A DNA stretch of 64,000 nt. Source: Polytrichum commune. Taxonomy: Eukaryota; Streptophyta; Polytrichopsida; Polytrichales; Polytrichaceae. Position 1 is the stretch's first letter; each line of letters begins with the position of its first letter. Shown here in pieces: positions 40,554 to 59,984 of the stretch. The position numbers and the translations under genes were made by a program. The notes under the pieces were generated by a model that was not told the DNA's origin, did not search any database, and worked only from the letters and a program-made list of their open reading frames with translations. Location: NCBI GenBank assembly GCA_950295325.1, contig OX485804.1, positions 21,824,001 to 21,888,000 of the forward strand. The letters run 5' to 3'.

Positions 40554-43500
40554 TCAAGGTCCATCAGAATGGACTGGAGAAGGACTGCGGGCCTGGTCAG
40601 GAGTTGAACTACGTCGAGGATGCTCTGGAGAAATGCTACGCTGAGGTGGTGAATGGCTCCTGGCTCCAGGTGAACTTGAAATTTGGCGCCGAGGAGGCGA
40701 TGATTTTTCTTCTGGAGATTCACTATCCCTGATTACACAAACACCTCTTTGAGAACAAATCCATAAAAGATACCTTTTTTATTTAAAATTCACTAGATCC
40801 AGACATGCAAGGACTTGAGTTGGCCTTTAAAAGTCAGTCCATTTGAGGGGGATGATCTCTCCTGAATGCAAAGAGCATATTTACAAAAAACAATAACCTT
40901 CTCAGGAAATTAGTTATACGCTACGTCTACACCTTTGATCAGAATACTTTGGCTACCTGACTGGATCCAAAGGAGATGAATCTCCATTTCTTGCAACCAC
41001 TTCCTTCATTGGCTCTTCAGAGTCTAACCGCTTTGTTGGACTGCGACTCATGCTTCGGCTGGGGCTGTGACTCACGCTACGTTTTCTTGGAGGGCTGGCA
41101 CTTTGCTTCCTTCGAGGGCTGTGTCCTCTACTTGGACTGCAAGATATAAACACAAGTTCGTTCAGGAAGAATGAATATGTACTAATTACTAAAATTCTAT
41201 GGTAAAATATCTATCATAAATGCAAATATCTTCTCTTTGTGTGCAAACCAAAAGTGTCTGAAATTTCTTATACTGACCTCACAATGACTACCAGAGCTAC
41301 ATGCTAGACCTTGATAGAAATGCAAAAAAACTGCATCATGGCACATCCTGTGCCTTAAGGTATTGTGCCAGTACCTGCGGCTTGTGTGAGGGGAAGTTTT
41401 AGGTCTATCAGATACACTGCGAGATGAGCGCTTTACATCTCCACTTGTACGGCCACGACTTCTGCTTCGACTGCGACTGACACTGCGAGAGGGACTCCGG
41501 CGTCTTGAACTACGACCCCGTTCTCTCTCCCGATCTCCTCCACCTCGGCCTCTCTCGTCACGGTACCTTTCACGCTCATAACGGTCACGACTTCGACTGC
41601 GCCGACGTGTGTCACGTGGATAACGTTCATCCTCCCTGGTGTGCCTTCTATCTCGGCTGCAAAACAGACAAAGCAAAATTTCTTTGTTGAAAATCTGAAC
41701 AGACAAAAAAATACAGAGCAGTGATGATGCAAGATGAATAGAACAGACATCAAAAGCTTGTATAGGTTGTTGCTTCATGAAGTGCAAGTAATTTCAAGCA
41801 TCCATAAAACTCAGAGGAATGATATAGAAGAAGGTATGAGCTTCATCAACACTGCTAGAGAAAAGCCAGAAGTGAAGCTAGCAATACCTTGGGCGCCTTG
41901 GGCTTCGACTTCTGGACCTGCTGACTTTCTTCACAGTGGTTTCTGTGATTCTTCCTCTTTGACTGCAGCACATCAGGAAAGAAGGAATTGCCAGGTGTCA
42001 AGAAATATTTGTCAGAAAATGTTAGCTGCCTACCTTCCAGAATGTTATGTAGTAAATTAAACTGTTTATCATACCATTTGACATATCCATAAAACCAACA
42101 GATCCTGGAGGAAAAAACATCTCAAACACGCACAGAACATTAACAGCTTCTAAGAAGCCCAAATCCACTGCTCAACCAGGCATCCTGACTTTAAACATGT
42201 TTGTGCACCTATGATTAAACCCTCCAAGATCTGTGCAGCAGCATGCCAAGCATCCGACAGCTAGTCTGATATCCTTGGAGGGAATCAGGAACCATATAGC
42301 GTGCAGTTGGGTACTATGTAGAAGCTAGCAGGTTCTAAAACAAAAACTAGATGATTTGAGAAATCTCCTGCAAATAAATTGTGTATAGAGACAAAAACTA
42401 CTGATTCTAAAGAACCTAGCATGTACATCCTACAGCAGAACCACATGTGCACAACTGTAGCCAAGTTAGAGCCAAGAACTAATCAAGTAGTCTTCTAGAA
42501 TATAAATGCTGTAGAATGACATTGCCCTGCCCCCATGGACATCCCCTAGACATGACAATCTCCTTCTCATGCAAAGGTTGCATGAGATTTGGGAGCTTGA
42601 GATTGAAGACCCTACAGAAGGGTATCATCACAGCTGCCCAAAATAACACAGCTAATAAGTAGCTGAAGACTCACATTGGCTCATCATTGCGACCATACTT
42701 CGCACTCTGCACGACGATGTGTCTTCCATCAACTGCCCTGCCTGCATCAAAGCGACATGAATGACGGAGGAATTAGGTGACCGCTATTAACTTACATGGT
42801 TTCCATCTCCCGACCATACTTCGCATACTGAACCACCATGTCTCGCCCATCAACATTCCTGCCTGCATCGCGGCAAATCAGATGTAACAATACTTAGCAG
42901 TGGCTTATATATTGTAGATCTAATTAAAGTATGGGAAACCCACGTCATCGACTTAGACTCAGATTACAAGCTTACACCCAAGCTGAAAGAGCCACTAGTC
43001 ACCAAAATCGGTTTCCAACTAAGACAGACACAATAAACAGTGGCCAAGATTCAAAAGGACAGATGGTCCACCATCCAAGCGCTCTATGGCCTTCTGTGCC
43101 TCGTCAGCATACTTGTATCGAACAAATGCAAATCCTCGAGATTCTCCGGTCCTGGAAAGATGACCCACCATTGAAAAGCAAGCAAGTCATCAGCAGACCA
43201 CTTCGAAAGCCCAAAAATTCCATTGTTAGTCTGTAGCTTCTGAAGAATCCAGAATTTATAATGTCCATCTGTTTGCATAATGGAGGGACCTCACAGGTAA
43301 TAAAATGCAAGATAAATGAAGCTAGCAATACCTTCGATCTCTTGGAATAAATATGTCCACCACCTTCCCATATCGATCAAACAAAGGGTAAAGATCATCT
43401 GCACTTGTACCTGTTCAAGAAACAAAGGAAGCACATTACAAATAGACCACTTTTCATGGGCATGAAGGCACCAATCTCATTAACCTCACGAAACCCATAA

Positions 43501-44843
43501 AACAGGAACAAATAAGATGTTTTGCCCTGAACTGTGTGTTCAAGACCAGGGTGTCAATGCCTTAAAAGTGATCCCTTTCAGAATTTCCTATTTGAATGTG
43601 AATGTGCAGATCAGTAAAATGTGGCCAAGAGAACAAAACTTGCTGGAGTTGTTTCACATCCTCCTTAGCATGTTCAGTAACTTATTCCTGATGGTGGTTT
43701 ACATTTTAGCTTTCGCATATCAGCTAAAGCATGCACTTCATAGTCAAGGAAGACATTTATTTGGCAGCCTTCTTCAAACACAGGATGGAGGCATATTGAA
43801 CCATTAGAAACATAGGCTTTAGTGACTGATGTACAGGACCCACAGTATATCAAACTAGTGGCATCAAAAACTCGAACCAATCCTTACAGTCCTAAAAGGG
43901 TGAAATCACTTCTTCACTTCATTTCCTGACAATTCTAGGGGTAGAACATTGTTCCTTGCCGCATCAAGAATAATACAAAGATGCCATGTTGAACACAGAT
44001 GATTCCAACATTATATCAATTTCTCCATCATTTATGGATAAAACAGATACCCATGATTCATGTTAAATGAACAAGGTGCTCACAATATATTCCCAACACC
44101 ATCTTCTGATGCACTTCACTTTGCACGCATATCCTAAAGACATACTGGAACAAATAATTAAGTGAAGGCCCAATAATGATACATTAGAGCACCATAGCAG
44201 ATTGCTAGAATTATCCCCAAAAGATGGAGACAAATGAGCACACTGTACCATTTAGCCAGTGCACAGACTAAGTCATACCATTGACTACAAACAGACGAGC
44301 TACAACCTTGCAGGTTCTTGGAACAAGTATCGCGCAGGCCATCAACCACACTTTCCCGTCTAGAGCCTGTTCTCGATGCCCTCCCTTATACCCACTCACT
44401 GAAGATAATTAAATTCATCAAAAGAACAAAACAACAAACCCCACACATCCACATTCCTCATGCAACCGTGCCAACAAAACTAGGACGGGAGGAAAAACCG
44501 GTGAAACGAACCCTACCACCAATCTACACAACACCAGGAACTTCCCTGAATGGCTCCTACATGAAACCCGACAACGCCAACGCCCAAAACTACATTTGTC
44601 CCAAACCACAACTAAGAATGACCTCCAAACCATCGACCTCCACACACTTGTCAAGAATAGGGCACCAAGCCACACAAACCCCAGCAAGCCAGCAAACCCC
44701 AGACACAAAGCAACAGTAAAACACATGCATTATAGCAAGCGGCAGGAGAAGGGAACAGGAGACATACGGAAAGTAATGTTGAGCACAAGCAGGGAGTATG
44801 TGTCCCTGATGTCTGGAGGTCCGGCTCTGCCGAAGTGCGACAT
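40554..44843 (-). CDS. SC35: Serine/arginine-rich splicing factor SC35
   Basis: Eight coding exons on the minus strand: 44843-44768, 43410-43332, 43151-43072, one of 42862-42796 or 42741-42675, 41962-41888, 41656-41375, 41136-40957 and 40728-40554. All phases agree, giving 337 residues. The protein starts MSHFGRAGPPDI, as plant SC35 proteins do. It has one RNA-recognition motif (about 15-96) with RNP2 LLVLNI (18-23) and RNP1 RGFAFVRY (57-64), then a long RS domain (SRSRSRSRGR, SPSRSMSRSP). SC35 acts in the nucleus, binding exonic enhancers and recruiting spliceosome components. The C-terminus (from about 230) is longer and more Pro-rich than I recall for Arabidopsis SC35. Exon 4 exists in two versions that replace each other. 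The first coding intron is about 1.36 kb, by far the longest. Confidence 0.93.
42675..42741 (-). other. SC35 alternative exon 4B
   Basis: A 67-nt exon with acceptor GATGCAG and donor GTGAGT. It encodes RAVDGRHIVVQSAKYGRNDEP, the last beta strand of the RRM. It has the same length and phases as 4A, from which it is separated by 54 nt, and about 70% of bases match. It replaces 4A's VVQYAKYGREMET ending with VVQSAKYGRNDEP. The N-D-E-P end is closer to the NAEK of Arabidopsis SC35. Confidence 0.8.
42796..42862 (-). other. SC35 alternative exon 4A
   Basis: A 67-nt exon with acceptor GATGCAG and donor GTAAGT, upstream of 4B in transcript order. It encodes RNVDGRDMVVQYAKYGREMET. Joining 4A to 4B would read ATG CAG GGC AGT TGA and stop, while skipping both also yields a stop in exon 5. 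Only one of the pair can therefore be used productively. Confidence 0.8.
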
Positions 44844-48395: not shown

Positions 48396-49969
48396 CTACT
48401 GTCGGTTCACATGACATTGTGAGGTCTGTGGTAATCCGACTCCAAAGGGTCCGTGGTATTCGGTATAAGCGGGATCTCCAGCTCGAAAGGCTCTCTGATC
48501 TTCTTCACCGCTACTTTTACCATTTGGTGACCTAAACAACGACTGATGACCTGCATTATTGTTATTATTGTTACTCAAAAAAGCAGACGCAGGGCTTAAC
48601 TTGAAAGGTTTAGGGGAGGGTTTAGGAGACTGGAAAGGTGCAGCTTTCCACAGATTGAAATCAAAACCACCTGCAGTTGATTTCTTCTCTGCGGAGAATG
48701 TCGGTGTTGTGCTTATGTGAGGAGTAAACTGAAATGGAGTTGCAGTACTTGGCCAGGTGGATGCTGAGAACGGTGGATAGCTGGATTTTATAGCTCCATC
48801 TAGAGGAACTGGTGAGTCGGGCTGGACGACACGGGTGTTGAAGGTATTGGATGTGGAGGTAGGAGAAGGTGCGGAAGGAGAAGGGTAAATTGGGGCAAGA
48901 ACTGGAGGTTGTGTTGTAGATGGATGCGAGGGGAATGGAGGAATTACAGTGGGGGAGGTACTGTTGGTGGTTGCTGCAGGTGTGGAGGAAGGGCGTGAAC
49001 GGATTTGAGAAGTTACTGCGGATCCTAAACTAATATCCTCTTGAGAAGAGATTGCTAGAGCCTCCAAAGCTTCTGCTAGTGCAGTTGGGTTACTTCCCTT
49101 CAAGGTTTGGTAGTCCTCACGGTTCACGAAACTTTTGAAATCTTTCTTAATTTGTTGCATGGCCGCTAGCTTTATGGCGTCGGAGTTGCAGCTCGCGGCG
49201 AGCTGCAAGAAAGAGATGGCGGTGTCTTGCGTGATGCTCTTTTTGATGTACTCCTCGCATACGGACTTTAGGGCATCGACCTCGCACTTATGGGCTGTGG
49301 CCATCAAATGCCCGGAGTACTTCTCCAGATCCTCCTCGCTCACTTCCGCGGTGTACAAAAAGTGCAGGAATGATTTGAGAATCTTCACTTGCATGTCTGT
49401 TTGCAAGTTTTTCGTCCCCCCCTCTGCTAACATAGCCTTGAACACCGGGGACTTGGACACCTACATTGTTGCATTTACCAACATGTTAGAATTTGTCACC
49501 AACCAATTTGTTACATAATTCCTTATAACATTCTCAAAGTGATAAAAAAGCTTCGAAACTTATAAGCACTGAGATGAGGGTAACTTACCAGAACTGTGCG
49601 GTGCGCATGGAGGATCTGTCCATCTTTCGTGGTTATTGTAACCGCTTCACCCTCCGGTCTGTCGGACAAAAGACTCTCATCCCACAACCTTAGAAATTGG
49701 AGTTGGCGCTTCAATGATCGCACCTCCTCAGCTAGTCCCTTGTCTTGCTCCAGAACGTCCCCCCATGATCCTTCCCTCTTGACCTTCCCAAGAAGGGTGG
49801 TGAGATTTTTGTTGCAATTCTGACACATGTGGACCATACAAGTCGAGTAGACTGGCACGCATGAGTTCGAAACGATATTGCTCGCCGAGAGTTGGACTAA
49901 TTTCTCTTTCCCCGTGTTCAGAACTCTTTTACAATATTCACATTCAGCGGAGAAAGGAGTGAACGTCAT
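48396..49969 (-). CDS. BTB/POZ domain protein with Cys-rich N-terminus
   Basis: Two exons, 49969-49589 and 49460-48396, phase 0, 481 residues. The BTB/POZ domain (about 108-215) is recognised from ITTKDGQILHAHRTVLVSKS, SPVFKAML, FLHFLYTAEV and HKCEVDALKSVCEEYI. Such proteins usually dimerise and often act as substrate adaptors for Cullin-3 ubiquitin ligases. N-terminal cysteines (CEYC at 10-13, Cys44, Cys49, Cys52, with C37 nearby) could bind zinc. A predicted coiled coil (EEVRSLKRQLQFLRL) precedes the BTB domain, the arrangement of Arabidopsis proteins like At4g08455, as I recall it. The C-terminal 200 residues are Ser/Pro/Thr-rich and disordered, with an Asn run. That tail is unusually long. 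The 5' leader probably has an intron. Confidence 0.85.
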
Positions 49970-52337: not shown

Positions 52338-55300
52338 ATGACATTGATGGAGACCATAGTTGAGAGGCAAACGTCAGTAACCAAAAGCCAAATTCCTTTT
52401 GAGGTTGTAGACGATGATGAATATGAAGCTATTGAGGCGGCATTGCAGCGCGCTTCCTCTGTTCCACGTATTTTGCCACACGCGAATTCATATCCTCCGT
52501 CACTCCGCCATCAAGTGAGCCAGCCTCAACAACCGAAGCGATCCATAGCTGAGTCCTGTAACTCGTGGCTGGCTCAATGTTCAAATCATCGGCAAGCTCG
52601 CAGTTCTGATGATAAACAGATTGGATCCGTGCTCCTCCTTAAATCCGGTCAATCTGCATCTTGTGCAACTATTTCATGTGCAAGCATGTCGAAAAGCTCC
52701 GATTCTCTTGTTTTTAAGTACACTGCGGTTCAAGGCGAGACCACCCAGAGCTGCGGCTGTGACAAGGAAAATAAGTCGCATGATGGTCTTTCATTAAAAA
52801 AGTGTTCATGTGTACCATACTCGCATAATGCCTGCAAGAATATCAGGAGCACAGAGGATGGGGCAACGCCAAGGGCAGATGATGTGCAAGTAATTCAGGG
52901 AGCTACAGTACCAGCAGTCATGGACATCGAAGATGTGCCGGGTAATAAGAAAGATGGTGCGAAGAGGCAGACGGGAGATGGAGATGGCAGTGCACCGCCT
53001 CCTGAGCCGAAGCCAAGGTGCTTGTCCGTTACCGATTTCACAGCATTGGTAAGCAATTTCCTTCGGAAAGATGCAGGGTGAGATGCAGTTTAAGTAGTAC
53101 CTCAACTCTGACGCTGGACTAATATGCGGTTCCAGTGTCTAGGTGGTTCTAAATAACAGTCCAATTGCTTATTACTGTCCTGAAGCTCAAGGGTGGCTGA
53201 AATGGTGTGATTCAGACCCACTCTTTCTTTCGATGTTGCCAATGTTGCTTCATCTTCGAGTGGGTTTATGTGATCTTTCTTTCTCCTGAAGCTCAAGAGG
53301 ATTATGGAAAGTAAACAAGTCCTGTATTTTGTACATAGGAATGGTGTGAGAAGCAAGTGGAATTCACCAAGACATTGGGAAAGCCAAAGCAAACAGAGGC
53401 AATGAAAGCTGGCAGTGCTCGGCATGCTGAGCTCGAAGTAGAGGTGGGTCTCCTCGATGCAAGGACATCATGGCCTCCTATTATCTTGATAACACACCTA
53501 TTTGAAGAGAGTCTGTAGTGATATGTCATGCCAATTTATTTTCTCTGCTTTTGTTAAAGACATCAAACACAGTGGTTGCTTGTCATTCCCTTCCATGATG
53601 CACTTCAGGGTGTACAGAAAATAGAATTTCCTTAGGGTTCTACAAATTAGTCTATTGAGTTGTATGTTGCAACTTTGGGTGGAAGAGTGTTCATTTGTGG
53701 AGGTTTTTGCTGCTTTTGATGGCCTCCCTCATGGATGATGGATTCTCATTCTTGTCATATCCATTATAGGTCCTCAAAAAGGTTGAGGTGGAGATAACGT
53801 CTAAAGAAGATTCATGGGCAATGCGGCTGATAAATTTTATAACTGGAGCACGACAAATGCTAAGTGAAGGGATGACAAGGGAGTTGCCTGTGTAAGCATT
53901 CCTGACAGATTTGTTCCATGTTAGTTGCTGTCTGGGTGGTTTTCTATCAAGGACTTTCTGGATTTCAAATGATATCCTAATTCTAGCTGTCTTTGATCTC
54001 TATGCCTTGCCCTCCTTTCCAGTTTGAGTGGTAGCATTGACGATGTGATAGAGACTTATGTGGTGGAGTGCATTGTGAAAAATCTGCTGTCCTCCCATTT
54101 TAAGGTTGAGGGGTAATGGCTGTGACTAGGTTTTCCATGTTTAGCTCTGTAGTTCTCTGTGGTGCAGGGTGGGGTTGATTGAAGGAGCATGGGTGATTGG
54201 CATCATTGATGAACTCAAAATGTGTCAACTGGAAGGAGTGCATCGACCTCAGCTTATAGATACTAAAACCCGCAATAGGCCCACGCCCCCTTCAGCACCC
54301 CAGAAGCAAAATGGAAGGTACTACCTCTAATATGAAGGCAGATGATTTCTGGACTGGCTTTTGTGAATGGCAATGATTAGGTCAGTTTTTGTAATACTTG
54401 CATGTTTGCTAATGCATCTGATATGGACTTCTCAGGATGCAACTTATGGTTTATAAGTGTCTCTGGGATAATCTGGTAACAATGGGGGTTCCGTTTGATT
54501 ACTTCTTTGAGCACTTTAGGCTGCGTCCTGAGCATCTTCTCTCAAGTGATATCAGGGTCCATGCAGCAGAAGTTTTCCCTGATGCTGAGGTGAGTGGCAT
54601 ATCATTCATACTATGTTGACACTGGATTTTGAGGTTTCAGGAATAGTTTTTCTTTACCATCACTGTTTGCATTTATGAGGTTATGTGGTGTTTTAAATAA
54701 TGTCTTTCTGCAGGTGGAGAATCTGCGTGATGTATCTCGGATGTATTCTCAAGAGTGTATCTTGTTTCCGGAATCTCATGAATTGCTGCTCCTAAGGTAT
54801 CAGACATGCAGACCCTTACATGATGAACTGTTAAGAAAGTGCTAATGAAATTGTGAGGGGAAAAAGTGTGAGACAGTAGAGGCTGAGTTGGATCTGTTAT
54901 CTGACCAATGGTGAGGCAGTTTAAACTCCTATCTCTATCCTTCCTATGTATTTTCCATGTGAGGAAGCTGGAACATTGCTAGTTTTGAGTTGATTCTGGT
55001 GTTGGTGATTGGCAGATATGAGTGGCAAGCAGATCGATCATTGTTGGGTCAAGATGAGTTTTACATTGAACGAGAATGGTTGGATTTGAGGATAGGTTGG
55101 CACCTTGAGTTTTGGCACGGCTTAAGGGAACCAGCTTATGTTCCAGAGGATGAAACCTGGAAATGTCGATATTGTGCATTTGCTGAGCTATGCCCAGCTG
55201 TTCAAGCTCTAAGTCTAGGAACTGAACCAAAGAAAGTAGACCAAAACTCATCAGTACAGAAAAATCAAGGGTCGAAGGAGGTAGAGCAGAGCCCTCAGAT

Positions 55301-55694
55301 ACAGACATGTTTGGAGTCAAAGCAGGTAGAAGAGAGTCCTGTAATCCAGAGGAATCTGGAACCAAGACAGGTAGCCCCTCTAGTGCAATCATTTCCAGAA
55401 ATAAAGCAGGTAGATCAAGTTCCTCCAATACAAATATCTGAGGAGCCAAGGCAGGTTGATTGGACCCCTCCATTACAGATGCCTCAGAAGCCAAAGCAAG
55501 TAGATTGGAGCACTTCCAAACGAAGTGCTGAGAAGCCACAGCAGGTATTTTCGAGCTCTCGGGAGATCATTGATTTAACGATGGAGCCTGAGGAGCCAGA
55601 ACAAGTACACCGCAGGCCTTCGAAGCAAAACCCTTTGAAACCCATTGTTTCTAGTGGAATATTGAAATATTTCAAAAAGGAAACACTAAAGTAA
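52338..55694 (+). CDS. EXO5: Exonuclease V (EXO5) with extended tail
   Basis: Seven exons: 52338-53048, 53339-53443, 53770-53891, 54168-54317, 54436-54589, 54714-54796 and 55016-55694. All phases agree and give 667 residues. The family is a RecB-type single-stranded DNA exonuclease with an iron-sulphur cluster, acting in genome maintenance and, in some lineages, in organelles. Conserved parts visible: EWCEKQ (Cys240), AGSARHAELE (His266), GIIDELK (Asp327), LIDTKTR (Asp344, Lys346), QLMVYK (365-370) and the C-x2-C-x5-C cluster KCRYCAFAELCP (492, 495, 501). The core spans about 230-510. The N-terminal 230 residues are disordered. The C-terminal 155 residues hold about seven 13-16-residue repeats (KQVDxxPPIQ-like), a SUMO-interacting-type motif EIIDLTMEPEE (625-635) and GILKYFKK (656-663) at the end. 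Confidence 0.92.
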
Positions 55695-56554: not shown

Positions 56555-56607
56555 CCCTTCCCAGCATCTCGCGCACGTCTATCACAGGTCGGCCACCTTG
56601 GCCCAAT

Positions 56608-56680
56608 GGGGGTGTAGCTCAAATGGAAGAGCGCTCGCTTTGCATGCGAGAGGTACCGGGATCGATACCCGGCGTCTCCA
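56608..56680 (+). tRNA. tRNA-Ala (anticodon UGC)
   Basis: A complete 73-base cloverleaf: acceptor GGGGGTG pairs with CGTCTCC (with G-U pairs), D arm GCTC/GAGC, anticodon stem CTCGC/GCGAG around loop TTTGCAT (anticodon TGC), T arm CCGGG/CCCGG, discriminator A. There is no intron and no encoded CCA. The variable loop is short, as in class I tRNAs. Nothing suggests organelle origin, although a nuclear plastid insertion cannot be formally excluded without comparing plastid sequence. Confidence 0.95.
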
Positions 56681-56691
56681 ATCACCATCGC

Positions 56692-58172: not shown

Positions 58173-59984
58173 TTACCCTGTCGAGTTTCGTGAAGTGATC
58201 AACTGAATCCCATATGGGACATCTATAGGTAGACAATCTTTCAAGTACGGTACTTTTGCAAGTATCCACTGATTGTTCAAGTCAGCATCATATGGACATT
58301 GGAACTTGAACACCGGAAGCTGGTAGCATGTGTCCACAGTTTGAGCACGGCTGCAAACTTCTTTGCTTTCGGGTCGGATGTCAATGAACCAAGGGGTGAT
58401 GGCACCATAGCCTTGTGCCACTCCACCGAAGGTCGACAAAGGAGTGACGAATAGAACGTCTGAGAAACTAAGTGTGATCATCTCCGTGAGAGCTTGCCTG
58501 TCTTCCTCGATGTCGTTGAAATGCTGAAGGCTGCCATGGGTCACCTGGATGATGCTCACATCCTCCTTGGCTGGGGGGTTGCGCGTGTACCGCTCCGAGA
58601 GAAACCCATGGAGGCTGGGGAAGAGGGAGGTGATGAAAACCACGGTGTGTGACCTGCGCGTATTGTCTTCTTCAGCAGCAGCAGCTCGCTCTGGAGATTC
58701 GGCAGGTGGAAGGTTAATAATTCTGTTGGAAATGTTTTTTCGAAATGTCTGAGGGTGAGATTCAGCTATGGCGGTGGCGGTGGCTCCAGGCTCAGGCAGA
58801 ATGCCATTGTCAAGAGCGCACTTCATAACCCTCTCAATGACCATGGCATGTGACCTGTTGTACTCCTTTTCACCATCTCGGTAGCGCACTTGAAATCCCA
58901 CACGGCGGTCAGGATGCCGCAAGTAGACGTTGTAAATCTGTTCAATCCTTCGCCACACTTCGTCCGAAGGCAGCATCGAGGTTCGAAGGAGGTGAGTGAG
59001 GGCCATTCTATCGGGGAAGAGTTCTTCTAAGACAGGGTTGAAGGAAGGAATAATGAATAGCTTGGGGAGATAGTAAATACAGCCATCGACGTAAAGCCAT
59101 GGAATGCGACGTAGATAAAATTGCTCCGTGTCACAAAAGAATCTTGCACCCGGCTGGCAGGTGTGATCGTTAGGGCTAAGTGCGTAAATTGATGTTGAGG
59201 TTCCTGATGTTTTCCCTGACCGAGCATCGCCAACTTCCATGTAGAACAGTGCGCTGTTGGACCAATACTTTTGATAATCAGACACATACTGCGGAGTAAA
59301 TTTCTTCTCTGGGTCAAACAGCCACGAGGAGCCTTCGAAGGGCTCACACATAATCCCTGGAACTAGGGTTTCTGCTGGCACCAAAAAAACTCGCTGCGTC
59401 AAAATGGCGTACAGGAGCCCCGAGATCATGGACAACACCTTGTTCCCTAACCCTGCCTTGGGTGAAATTCCCCCAACCAAGAATTTGCAGGCGCTGTCGT
59501 TCCTCTGTGACAAAAAGTACTCCGACATGTTGGCCGCGGTCCCTATTTTCTGTGTACATTCTCGGTGAAGCTTGGAATACTCCTTGAATACCTTCTCCCA
59601 TTTCCTGTTCTGCAATGTGTCCTTCCACAGCGGGGGGAGCTGCTCGCGGCTCTTACATGGGTTCTTTTGGTACCAAAGATCTCTGGCAGTTCCGGTGAAT
59701 TCAGGGGCATCCACCCCTCCCGTGACACGCCTAGTTGCGTTCCGGATAGCTTCGACAAGAGTAGATACGTCTACTATGGATGGGTGGAGAACTTCGTAGG
59801 GAAGCTCTACCGTGGGTTGCACACTGGGTGAGGTTAGAGGAAATATACAGCTGGCGACAAGGATGAGTCCTACCCCTAGAATGGCCACTACACAGATAGT
59901 TCGCACCGAAATGTACTTCGAATGCACCCGGGGCGGCAGCAATTTCTTCATCCGCTGGAGGAACCCAGCGGGTTGGGCTATCAT
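58173..59984 (-). CDS. GT37 xyloglucan-type fucosyltransferase, intronless
   Basis: A single open frame of 603 residues. It is a family GT37 protein: these Golgi type II membrane enzymes add fucose from GDP-fucose to cell-wall polysaccharides or arabinogalactan proteins. A single N-terminal signal-anchor (about 29-50, hydrophobic VVAILGVGLILVA) follows a short basic cytosolic tail. Family motifs present are GLGNKVLSMISGLLYAILTQ with RVFLV, CEPFEGSSWLF, the donor-site-type segment VGFQVRYRDG, and SDVLFVTPLSTFGGVAQGYG near the C-terminus. Many NxS/T sites suit a Golgi lumen location. The acceptor cannot be told from sequence. It starts at the first Met; the Met at 12 is an alternative. The 603 residues are a little longer than Arabidopsis FUT1 as I recall it, largely through the stem region and an insertion around 400-450. 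Confidence 0.9.
   Translation of the reverse strand: MIAQPAGFLQRMKKLLPPRVHSKYISVRTICVVAILGVGLILVASCIFPLTSPSVQPTVELPYEVLHPSIVDVSTLVEAIRNATRRVTGGVDAPEFTGTARDLWYQKNPCKSREQLPPLWKDTLQNRKWEKVFKEYSKLHRECTQKIGTAANMSEYFLSQRNDSACKFLVGGISPKAGLGNKVLSMISGLLYAILTQRVFLVPAETLVPGIMCEPFEGSSWLFDPEKKFTPQYVSDYQKYWSNSALFYMEVGDARSGKTSGTSTSIYALSPNDHTCQPGARFFCDTEQFYLRRIPWLYVDGCIYYLPKLFIIPSFNPVLEELFPDRMALTHLLRTSMLPSDEVWRRIEQIYNVYLRHPDRRVGFQVRYRDGEKEYNRSHAMVIERVMKCALDNGILPEPGATATAIAESHPQTFRKNISNRIINLPPAESPERAAAAEEDNTRRSHTVVFITSLFPSLHGFLSERYTRNPPAKEDVSIIQVTHGSLQHFNDIEEDRQALTEMITLSFSDVLFVTPLSTFGGVAQGYGAITPWFIDIRPESKEVCSRAQTVDTCYQLPVFKFQCPYDADLNNQWILAKVPYLKDCLPIDVPYGIQLITSRNSTG

Follow-up and report, generated by a model that had tools for sequence, protein, structure and literature searches.

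Can a plant SR protein gene offer two interchangeable exons for the end of its RNA recognition motif (RRM), and what would keep both of them from entering the same message? The question is raised by an SC35 gene lying in the 64-kb stretch of Polytrichum commune DNA analysed here (the window), in which an earlier note had picked out two similar exons, 4A and 4B, and read them as mutually exclusive. The answer bears on whether plants tune the RNA specificity of SR proteins by splicing, and on how short an intron has to be before it becomes a lock.

Structure of the SC35 gene

The exons of the gene and the other features seen in the window are listed in Table 1. Counting the alternative pair once, the gene model has eight coding exons and encodes an RRM followed by an RS tail. 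Exon 3 breaks off one base into a codon, and another codon is completed by a single base from exon 5, so that either 4A or 4B alone gives a protein of 337 aa.

Table 1. Features of the 64-kb window (positions are those of the window; a slash in a splice site marks the exon end).
Feature	Position	Strand	Remarks
SC35 gene, coding part (SC subfamily SR protein)	40554..44843	-	Exons 1, 2, 3, 4A or 4B, 5, 6, 7, 8; from exon joins, Pfam and PDB matches
SC35 exon 1, start codon and beginning of RRM	44768..44843	-	
SC35 exon 2	43332..43410	-	
SC35 exon 3, weak donor ATG/GTGGAC	43072..43151	-	Paralog donor ATG/GTTTCC
SC35 exon 4A, RRM end, GRNVDGRDMVVQYAKYGREMETI with split codons	42796..42862	-	Paralog copy 64/67 bases identical
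SC35 4A-4B spacer, 54 nt	42742..42795	-	Paralog: same length, 41/54 identical, CTAAT at same position
SC35 exon 4B, alternative RRM end, GRAVDGRHIVVQSAKYGRNDEPI with split codons	42675..42741	-	Paralog copy 59/67 bases identical
SC35 exon 5, correct frame from 4A or 4B	41888..41962	-	Carries the stop read on double skipping
SC35 exon 6, RS region	41375..41656	-	
SC35 exon 7, RS region	40957..41136	-	
SC35 exon 8, last coding exon and stop	40554..40728	-	
BTB-domain open frame	48396..49460	-	
Open frame with exonuclease V fragment	54990..55694	+	
tRNA-Ala (TGC)	56607..56681	+	
603-aa open frame, xyloglucan fucosyltransferase domain	58173..59984	-	PF03254, E 2.2e-56; in keeping with a plant genome

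When the first 125 residues were compared with Pfam, a single N-terminal RRM_1 domain was found in both isoforms (70.2 bits with 4A and 69.2 bits with 4B, for a cut-off of 20.7). The RS region of plant SR proteins has been defined by its C-terminal location, a minimum length of 50 aa and an RS or SR dipeptide content of 20% or more (PMC7105729). By this definition the tail of the window protein is an RS region: its best 50-aa stretch, which starts at residue 174, holds 18 overlapping RS/SR dipeptides covering 27 of the 50 residues, and the 232 residues of the tail contain 38 such dipeptides altogether. The plan described for the SC subfamily in plants, including moss, is a single RRM with an RS region after it, and four SC members have been reported for P. 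patens (PMC7105729, PMC5457400, PMC3173450). Among PDB sequences, the RRM of human SRSF2 (2lea) was the best single-RRM match (E 1.3e-25, residues 4-98); it ranked second overall, below a four-RRM poly(A)-binding protein that came first by summed score and whose best single stretch gave 31 bits. This closeness to SRSF2 is a closeness among the sequences of solved structures. Both isoforms match human SRSF2 equally well (93.1 and 93.5 bits).

Two homologous exons with matching frames

We then compared the two exons with each other. They are identical at 47 of 67 bases, in agreement with the figure of about 70% given in the earlier note, and when the 64-kb window was scanned without gaps on both strands, no other 67-mer reached 38/67 against 4A, which means that the resemblance of 4A and 4B is not due to chance. 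The other anatomical claims of that note also held. Exon joins gave the same entry and exit phases for both exons, the spacing of only 54 nt was found again, and the splice sites are good, with AG and GT flanks and donors (CAT/GTAAGT for 4A, AAT/GTGAGT for 4B) that each agree with the consensus at 8/9 positions. Translation returned the predicted peptides, QYAKYGREMET from 4A and QSAKYGRNDEP from 4B.

A length of 67 nt is not divisible by three, so that the frame is shifted whether both exons are included or both are skipped. As had been foreseen, a message with both exons meets a TGA early in 4B, four codons past the one split across the 4A-4B junction, and a message with neither exon is stopped by a TGA within exon 5.

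The donors of 4A and 4B are the closest to the consensus among the eight donors scored in this gene and six scored in its paralog (see below). The exon 3 donor is poor in both intact genes, with 5/9 matching positions in the window (43063-43075) and 4/9 in the paralog. A weak exon 3 donor beside two near-consensus donors may be relevant to the regulation of the pair.

The exon pair is conserved in a paralogous gene

A search with the exon-pair region, confined to the genome from which the window comes, led to three places, one of which was the window itself. The second is an intact SC35 gene (C1:18.448-18.451 Mb) encoding 355 aa with either 4A or 4B. This paralog keeps both 67-nt exons, their frames, all four splice sites of the pair with the same 4A and 4B donors, and a 54-nt spacer. 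Early stops are again read on double inclusion and on double skipping, at codons different from those of the window gene. Preservation of the exons, frames, splice sites, spacer length and stops, together with that of a CTAAT motif within the spacer (see below), strengthens the mutually exclusive reading proposed in the earlier note. The paralog's exon 7 seems to end in a GC donor (CAG/GCAAGT) where the window gene has GT, and the frame is open to its end after joining.

With blastn (E up to 1e-4), the one match between the two genes that reaches well into introns is contiguous from 42667 to 42906 (85.6%) and covers the exon pair and its spacer, together with 44 nt of the intron before 4A and 8 nt of the intron after 4B. 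At the same threshold no other intron alignment was found between the two genes, the matches at exons 1, 2, 3, 5, 6, 7 and 8 overrunning the exons by at most 13 nt.

The third place (C2:61.909-61.913 Mb), a decayed partial copy, gives two matches of about 86%, to window positions 43619-41345 and 41276-40400, and still carries the pair. It was rejected as a third functional copy: no match to exon 1 was listed, frame-breaking changes are present in exons 2 and 4A, and exon 5 contains a stop. It was left out of the selection counts given below. All three places found by the DNA search with the pair region show the genomic arrangement, which is an indirect look for retrocopies or spliced SC35 copies in this genome, and in protein searches of the same genome no exon-joined SC35 copy was present among the 33 and 6 matches listed.

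A 14-base stretch, GCGAAGTATGGTCG, shows no difference among the six exon copies, silent sites included and the decayed copies among them, and is absent from the rest of the window. It may represent a splicing element common to the exons, or else the trace of conversion between them.

Divergence and constraint

Between the two intact genes, exons 1-3 encode the same 78 residues and differ by 29 silent changes and no amino-acid change (dS 0.905). Exon 4A has undergone two silent changes and one replacement (dS 0.143, dN 0.019) and exon 4B four silent changes and four replacements (dS 0.308, dN 0.079), in both cases without indels. Silent change is lower in 4A and 4B taken together (6 changes at about 31 sites) than in exons 1-3 (29 at about 55 sites), with a Fisher p of 0.003. 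When each exon was compared singly with exons 1-3, p was 0.008 for 4A, and the value for 4B fell short of significance (p 0.086). Such low silent change is what would be anticipated for exons harbouring splicing signals as well as codons; an old conversion between the paralogs could be partly behind it. The spacer, once six bases are removed at each end, is identical at 29/42 positions, and a less conserved core between better conserved exons argues against one recent conversion tract, leaving room for older events.

Copies occupying the same position in the two genes are closer (Table 1) than any of the four comparisons between a 4A and a 4B (46-51 of 67). The exons thus group by position and not by gene, which places the exon duplication before the gene duplication and means that both copies survived in both genes. 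As far as the sequences go, the existence of the pair, its origin before the gene duplication and its conservation are shown, the last in one paralog of the same genome.

Could one member of the pair nevertheless be dispensable? One possibility is that 4B (or 4A) is a non-functional relic of the duplication, spliced rarely or never; the decayed pseudogene at C2:61.91 Mb does still carry the pair. However, the duplication is older than a split from the paralog that lies at a dS of 0.905, both intact genes retain the splice sites, the frame and the spacer, and neutral exons would be expected to have become unalignable, like nearly all other intron sequence. We consider it very unlikely that either exon is such a relic.

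Alternatively, only one exon, probably 4A, might be productive, the other being a regulated decoy or poison exon whose use, alone or together with the first, would yield stop-containing messages that lower the level of SC35, a kind of self-regulation known for SR genes. The stops read on double inclusion and on double skipping in both genes agree with such a role, and the protein sequence has changed faster in 4B than in 4A, as if more amino-acid change were tolerated there. Yet in both genes a message with 4B alone is in frame and encodes a complete RRM. Moreover, its 23 codons contain neither a stop nor an indel and show four replacements at about 53 sites, to be compared with about 0.9 silent change per site in exons 1-3, whereas a poison exon would need no protein-coding constraint. 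The short spacer also disfavours double inclusion. We hold the poison exon to be improbable, and consider the use of both exons to be very likely.

The spacer and a possible steric lock

The spacer starts with GTAAGT and ends with GATGCAG. Its 41 identical positions between the two genes are to be compared with 27-31 for the best ungapped 54-nt matches inside introns 1-4. Both spacers contain the branch-point-like motif CTAAT, with its second A at spacer position 23, which leaves 31 nt to the spacer end. This is the only position-conserved match to yTnAy at an ordinary distance from the AG; a conserved TTGAT adjoins the AG and is too near. By motif match, CTAAT is the likely branch point of 4B, and it would lie about 22 nt from the 4A donor.

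The earlier note had held that 54 nt is below the usual minimum for plant introns, and this is consistent with what was found in this genome, where the shortest of 80 introns estimated from gaps between exon matches in kinesin and chaperonin genes is about 108 nt, twice the spacer length. These 80 introns came from all 197 matches (77 from a subset of 139) and represent two protein families, with lengths that are approximate, the match ends being inexact. Short introns read through inside one match escape such a count and would appear as extra bases within matches. Extra bases numbered at least 30 in 20 of the 197 rows; seven rows had 30-36 and none had 37-71. Three matches carried 72, 96 and 102 extra nucleotides, which are either short introns or coding loops.

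In human OGDH, exclusivity has been ascribed to branch points lying 25-41 nt from the upstream donor, with a proposed threshold of about 50 nt, in animal work (PMC7969005). Following the same logic, we propose that CTAAT is too near the 4A donor for both sites to be engaged simultaneously, so that 4A could not be joined to 4B. By this analogy a steric lock through the short spacer is likely.

Exclusivity could in principle be brought about in another way, by competing RNA structures with docking and selector sites of the kind found in insect Dscam. The conservation of silent sites within the module might reflect such structures. The module, though, which measures 261 nt in the window gene and 263 nt in its paralog, is predicted to fold less stably than its dinucleotide shuffles (z +0.95 and +2.37, respectively), the predicted folds look different in the two genes, and away from the pair the introns are almost entirely unalignable. 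From the module and its surrounding introns, we hold a Dscam-type mechanism to be extremely unlikely here.

Altogether, we think it highly probable, judging from the sequences of the two genes, that 4A and 4B arose long ago by tandem duplication of the exon for the RRM end and that they are spliced in a mutually exclusive manner, with 3-4A-5 and 3-4B-5 as the productive messages. Two locks would then operate. The first would be the crowding of the 4A donor and the 4B branch point just described. The second would act on messages escaping the first, as well as on those lacking both exons: the frameshift and early stop would be expected to expose them to nonsense-mediated decay. The two proteins would be identical in the remainder of the RRM and in the RS domain, and the 4A:4B ratio would probably adjust SC35 activity, perhaps by self-regulation.

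Consequences for the protein

We looked at what the exchange of 4A for 4B would change in the protein. The segment encoded by exon 4 presumably runs from the loop that follows helix 2 through strand beta 4 into the C-terminal tail of the RRM. Seven of its 23 codons specify different amino acids in 4A and 4B, and they are the same seven in both genes. Four of the differences (D/H, M/I, M/D and T/P, 4A residue first) are fixed in both genes; the three others have undergone further change (N vs A or T, Y vs S or F, and E or A vs N or K). At one of the latter, both 4A copies specify Tyr, the paralog 4B Phe and the window 4B Ser, which could indicate relaxed constraint on 4B in the window gene.

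Residue 97, which is E in 4A and N in 4B of the window gene and A and K, respectively, in the paralog, aligns with the first Pro of the YGRPP motif of human SRSF2, which we take to be Pro95. Mutation of SRSF2 Pro95 has been reported to increase binding to C-rich enhancers and to decrease binding to G-rich ones, a shift between CCNG and GGNG; according to NMR, the RRM termini of the mutant seemed to adopt another conformation (PMC4863743). Since 4A and 4B differ at the residue aligned with Pro95 and mutation of Pro95 alters preference, it is plausible that the two SC35 isoforms differ in RNA preference. The differences are located at the edge of the RRM, and their functional effect may therefore be small. 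The plant would probably make two RNA-binding forms of SC35.

Comparison with known systems

In animals, mutually exclusive pairs of homologous exons are a familiar phenomenon, and the kind of arrangement proposed here is thus not in itself new. The phrase "mutually exclusive" has no occurrence in the main texts, the part covered, of three articles on plant SR proteins (PMC7105729, PMC5457400 and PMC3173450). A literature search, with some subscription papers on plant SR splicing outside its reach, found no earlier description of the SC35 exon pair. As far as that search reaches, the exon pair is new for a plant SR protein.

The sole plant pair found in the literature examined is that of Arabidopsis FLM (MAF1), for which translatome reads of both forms are reported and a short protein segment is swapped, as would be the case for SC35 (PMC3266260). 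FLM differs in that it is a MADS transcription factor, whereas the SC35 pair sits in a core splicing regulator; its exons encode 19 and 15 aa, and sequences resembling the 3' exon are found only in MAF2 and MAF3. An equal-length homologous pair or a short-spacer lock is not among the features that the consulted parts of this article (PMC3266260) describe.

With respect to mechanism, the closest likeness is to exons 4a and 4b of vertebrate OGDH, which are duplicated and mutually exclusive, with branch points close to the upstream donor and an intervening intron whose length has been restricted over long evolution (PMC7969005). OGDH is an animal metabolic enzyme, and its branch points are unusually far from the 3' splice site. 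In SC35, in contrast, the whole intron would measure 54 nt and the likely branch point is at an ordinary 31 nt from its end.

With respect to anatomy, the pair recalls exons Ab and 3 of human U2AF1, tandem 67-nt duplicates for which messages containing both or neither have stops and are lowered by nonsense-mediated decay (PMC5224494). The likeness extends to the gene product, since U2AF1 is a splicing factor in which the pair encodes part of an RRM-like domain (UHM), with seven amino-acid differences and an RS domain following. It is nonetheless another protein in another kingdom: the U2AF1 UHM binds a protein partner, whereas the SC35 exchange concerns the end of a canonical RRM. The choice in U2AF1 is reportedly made through the branch point of exon Ab, its polypyrimidine tract and an upstream stem-loop (PMC5224494), whereas the likely block in SC35 is the 54-nt spacer. 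U2AF1 and SC35 being different genes, the likeness is presumably convergent, and it would be a notable convergence between splicing-factor genes. One could go further and imagine that a land plant has independently evolved a hard-wired switch like that of U2AF1, in which the swap at the equivalent of Pro95 provides two physiological RNA specificities and SC35 operates the switch on itself; we put this forward tentatively, as a possibility that we doubt more than we believe. If it were true, the alternation of the two isoforms would resemble the contrast between wild-type and mutant SRSF2 in human blood cancer.
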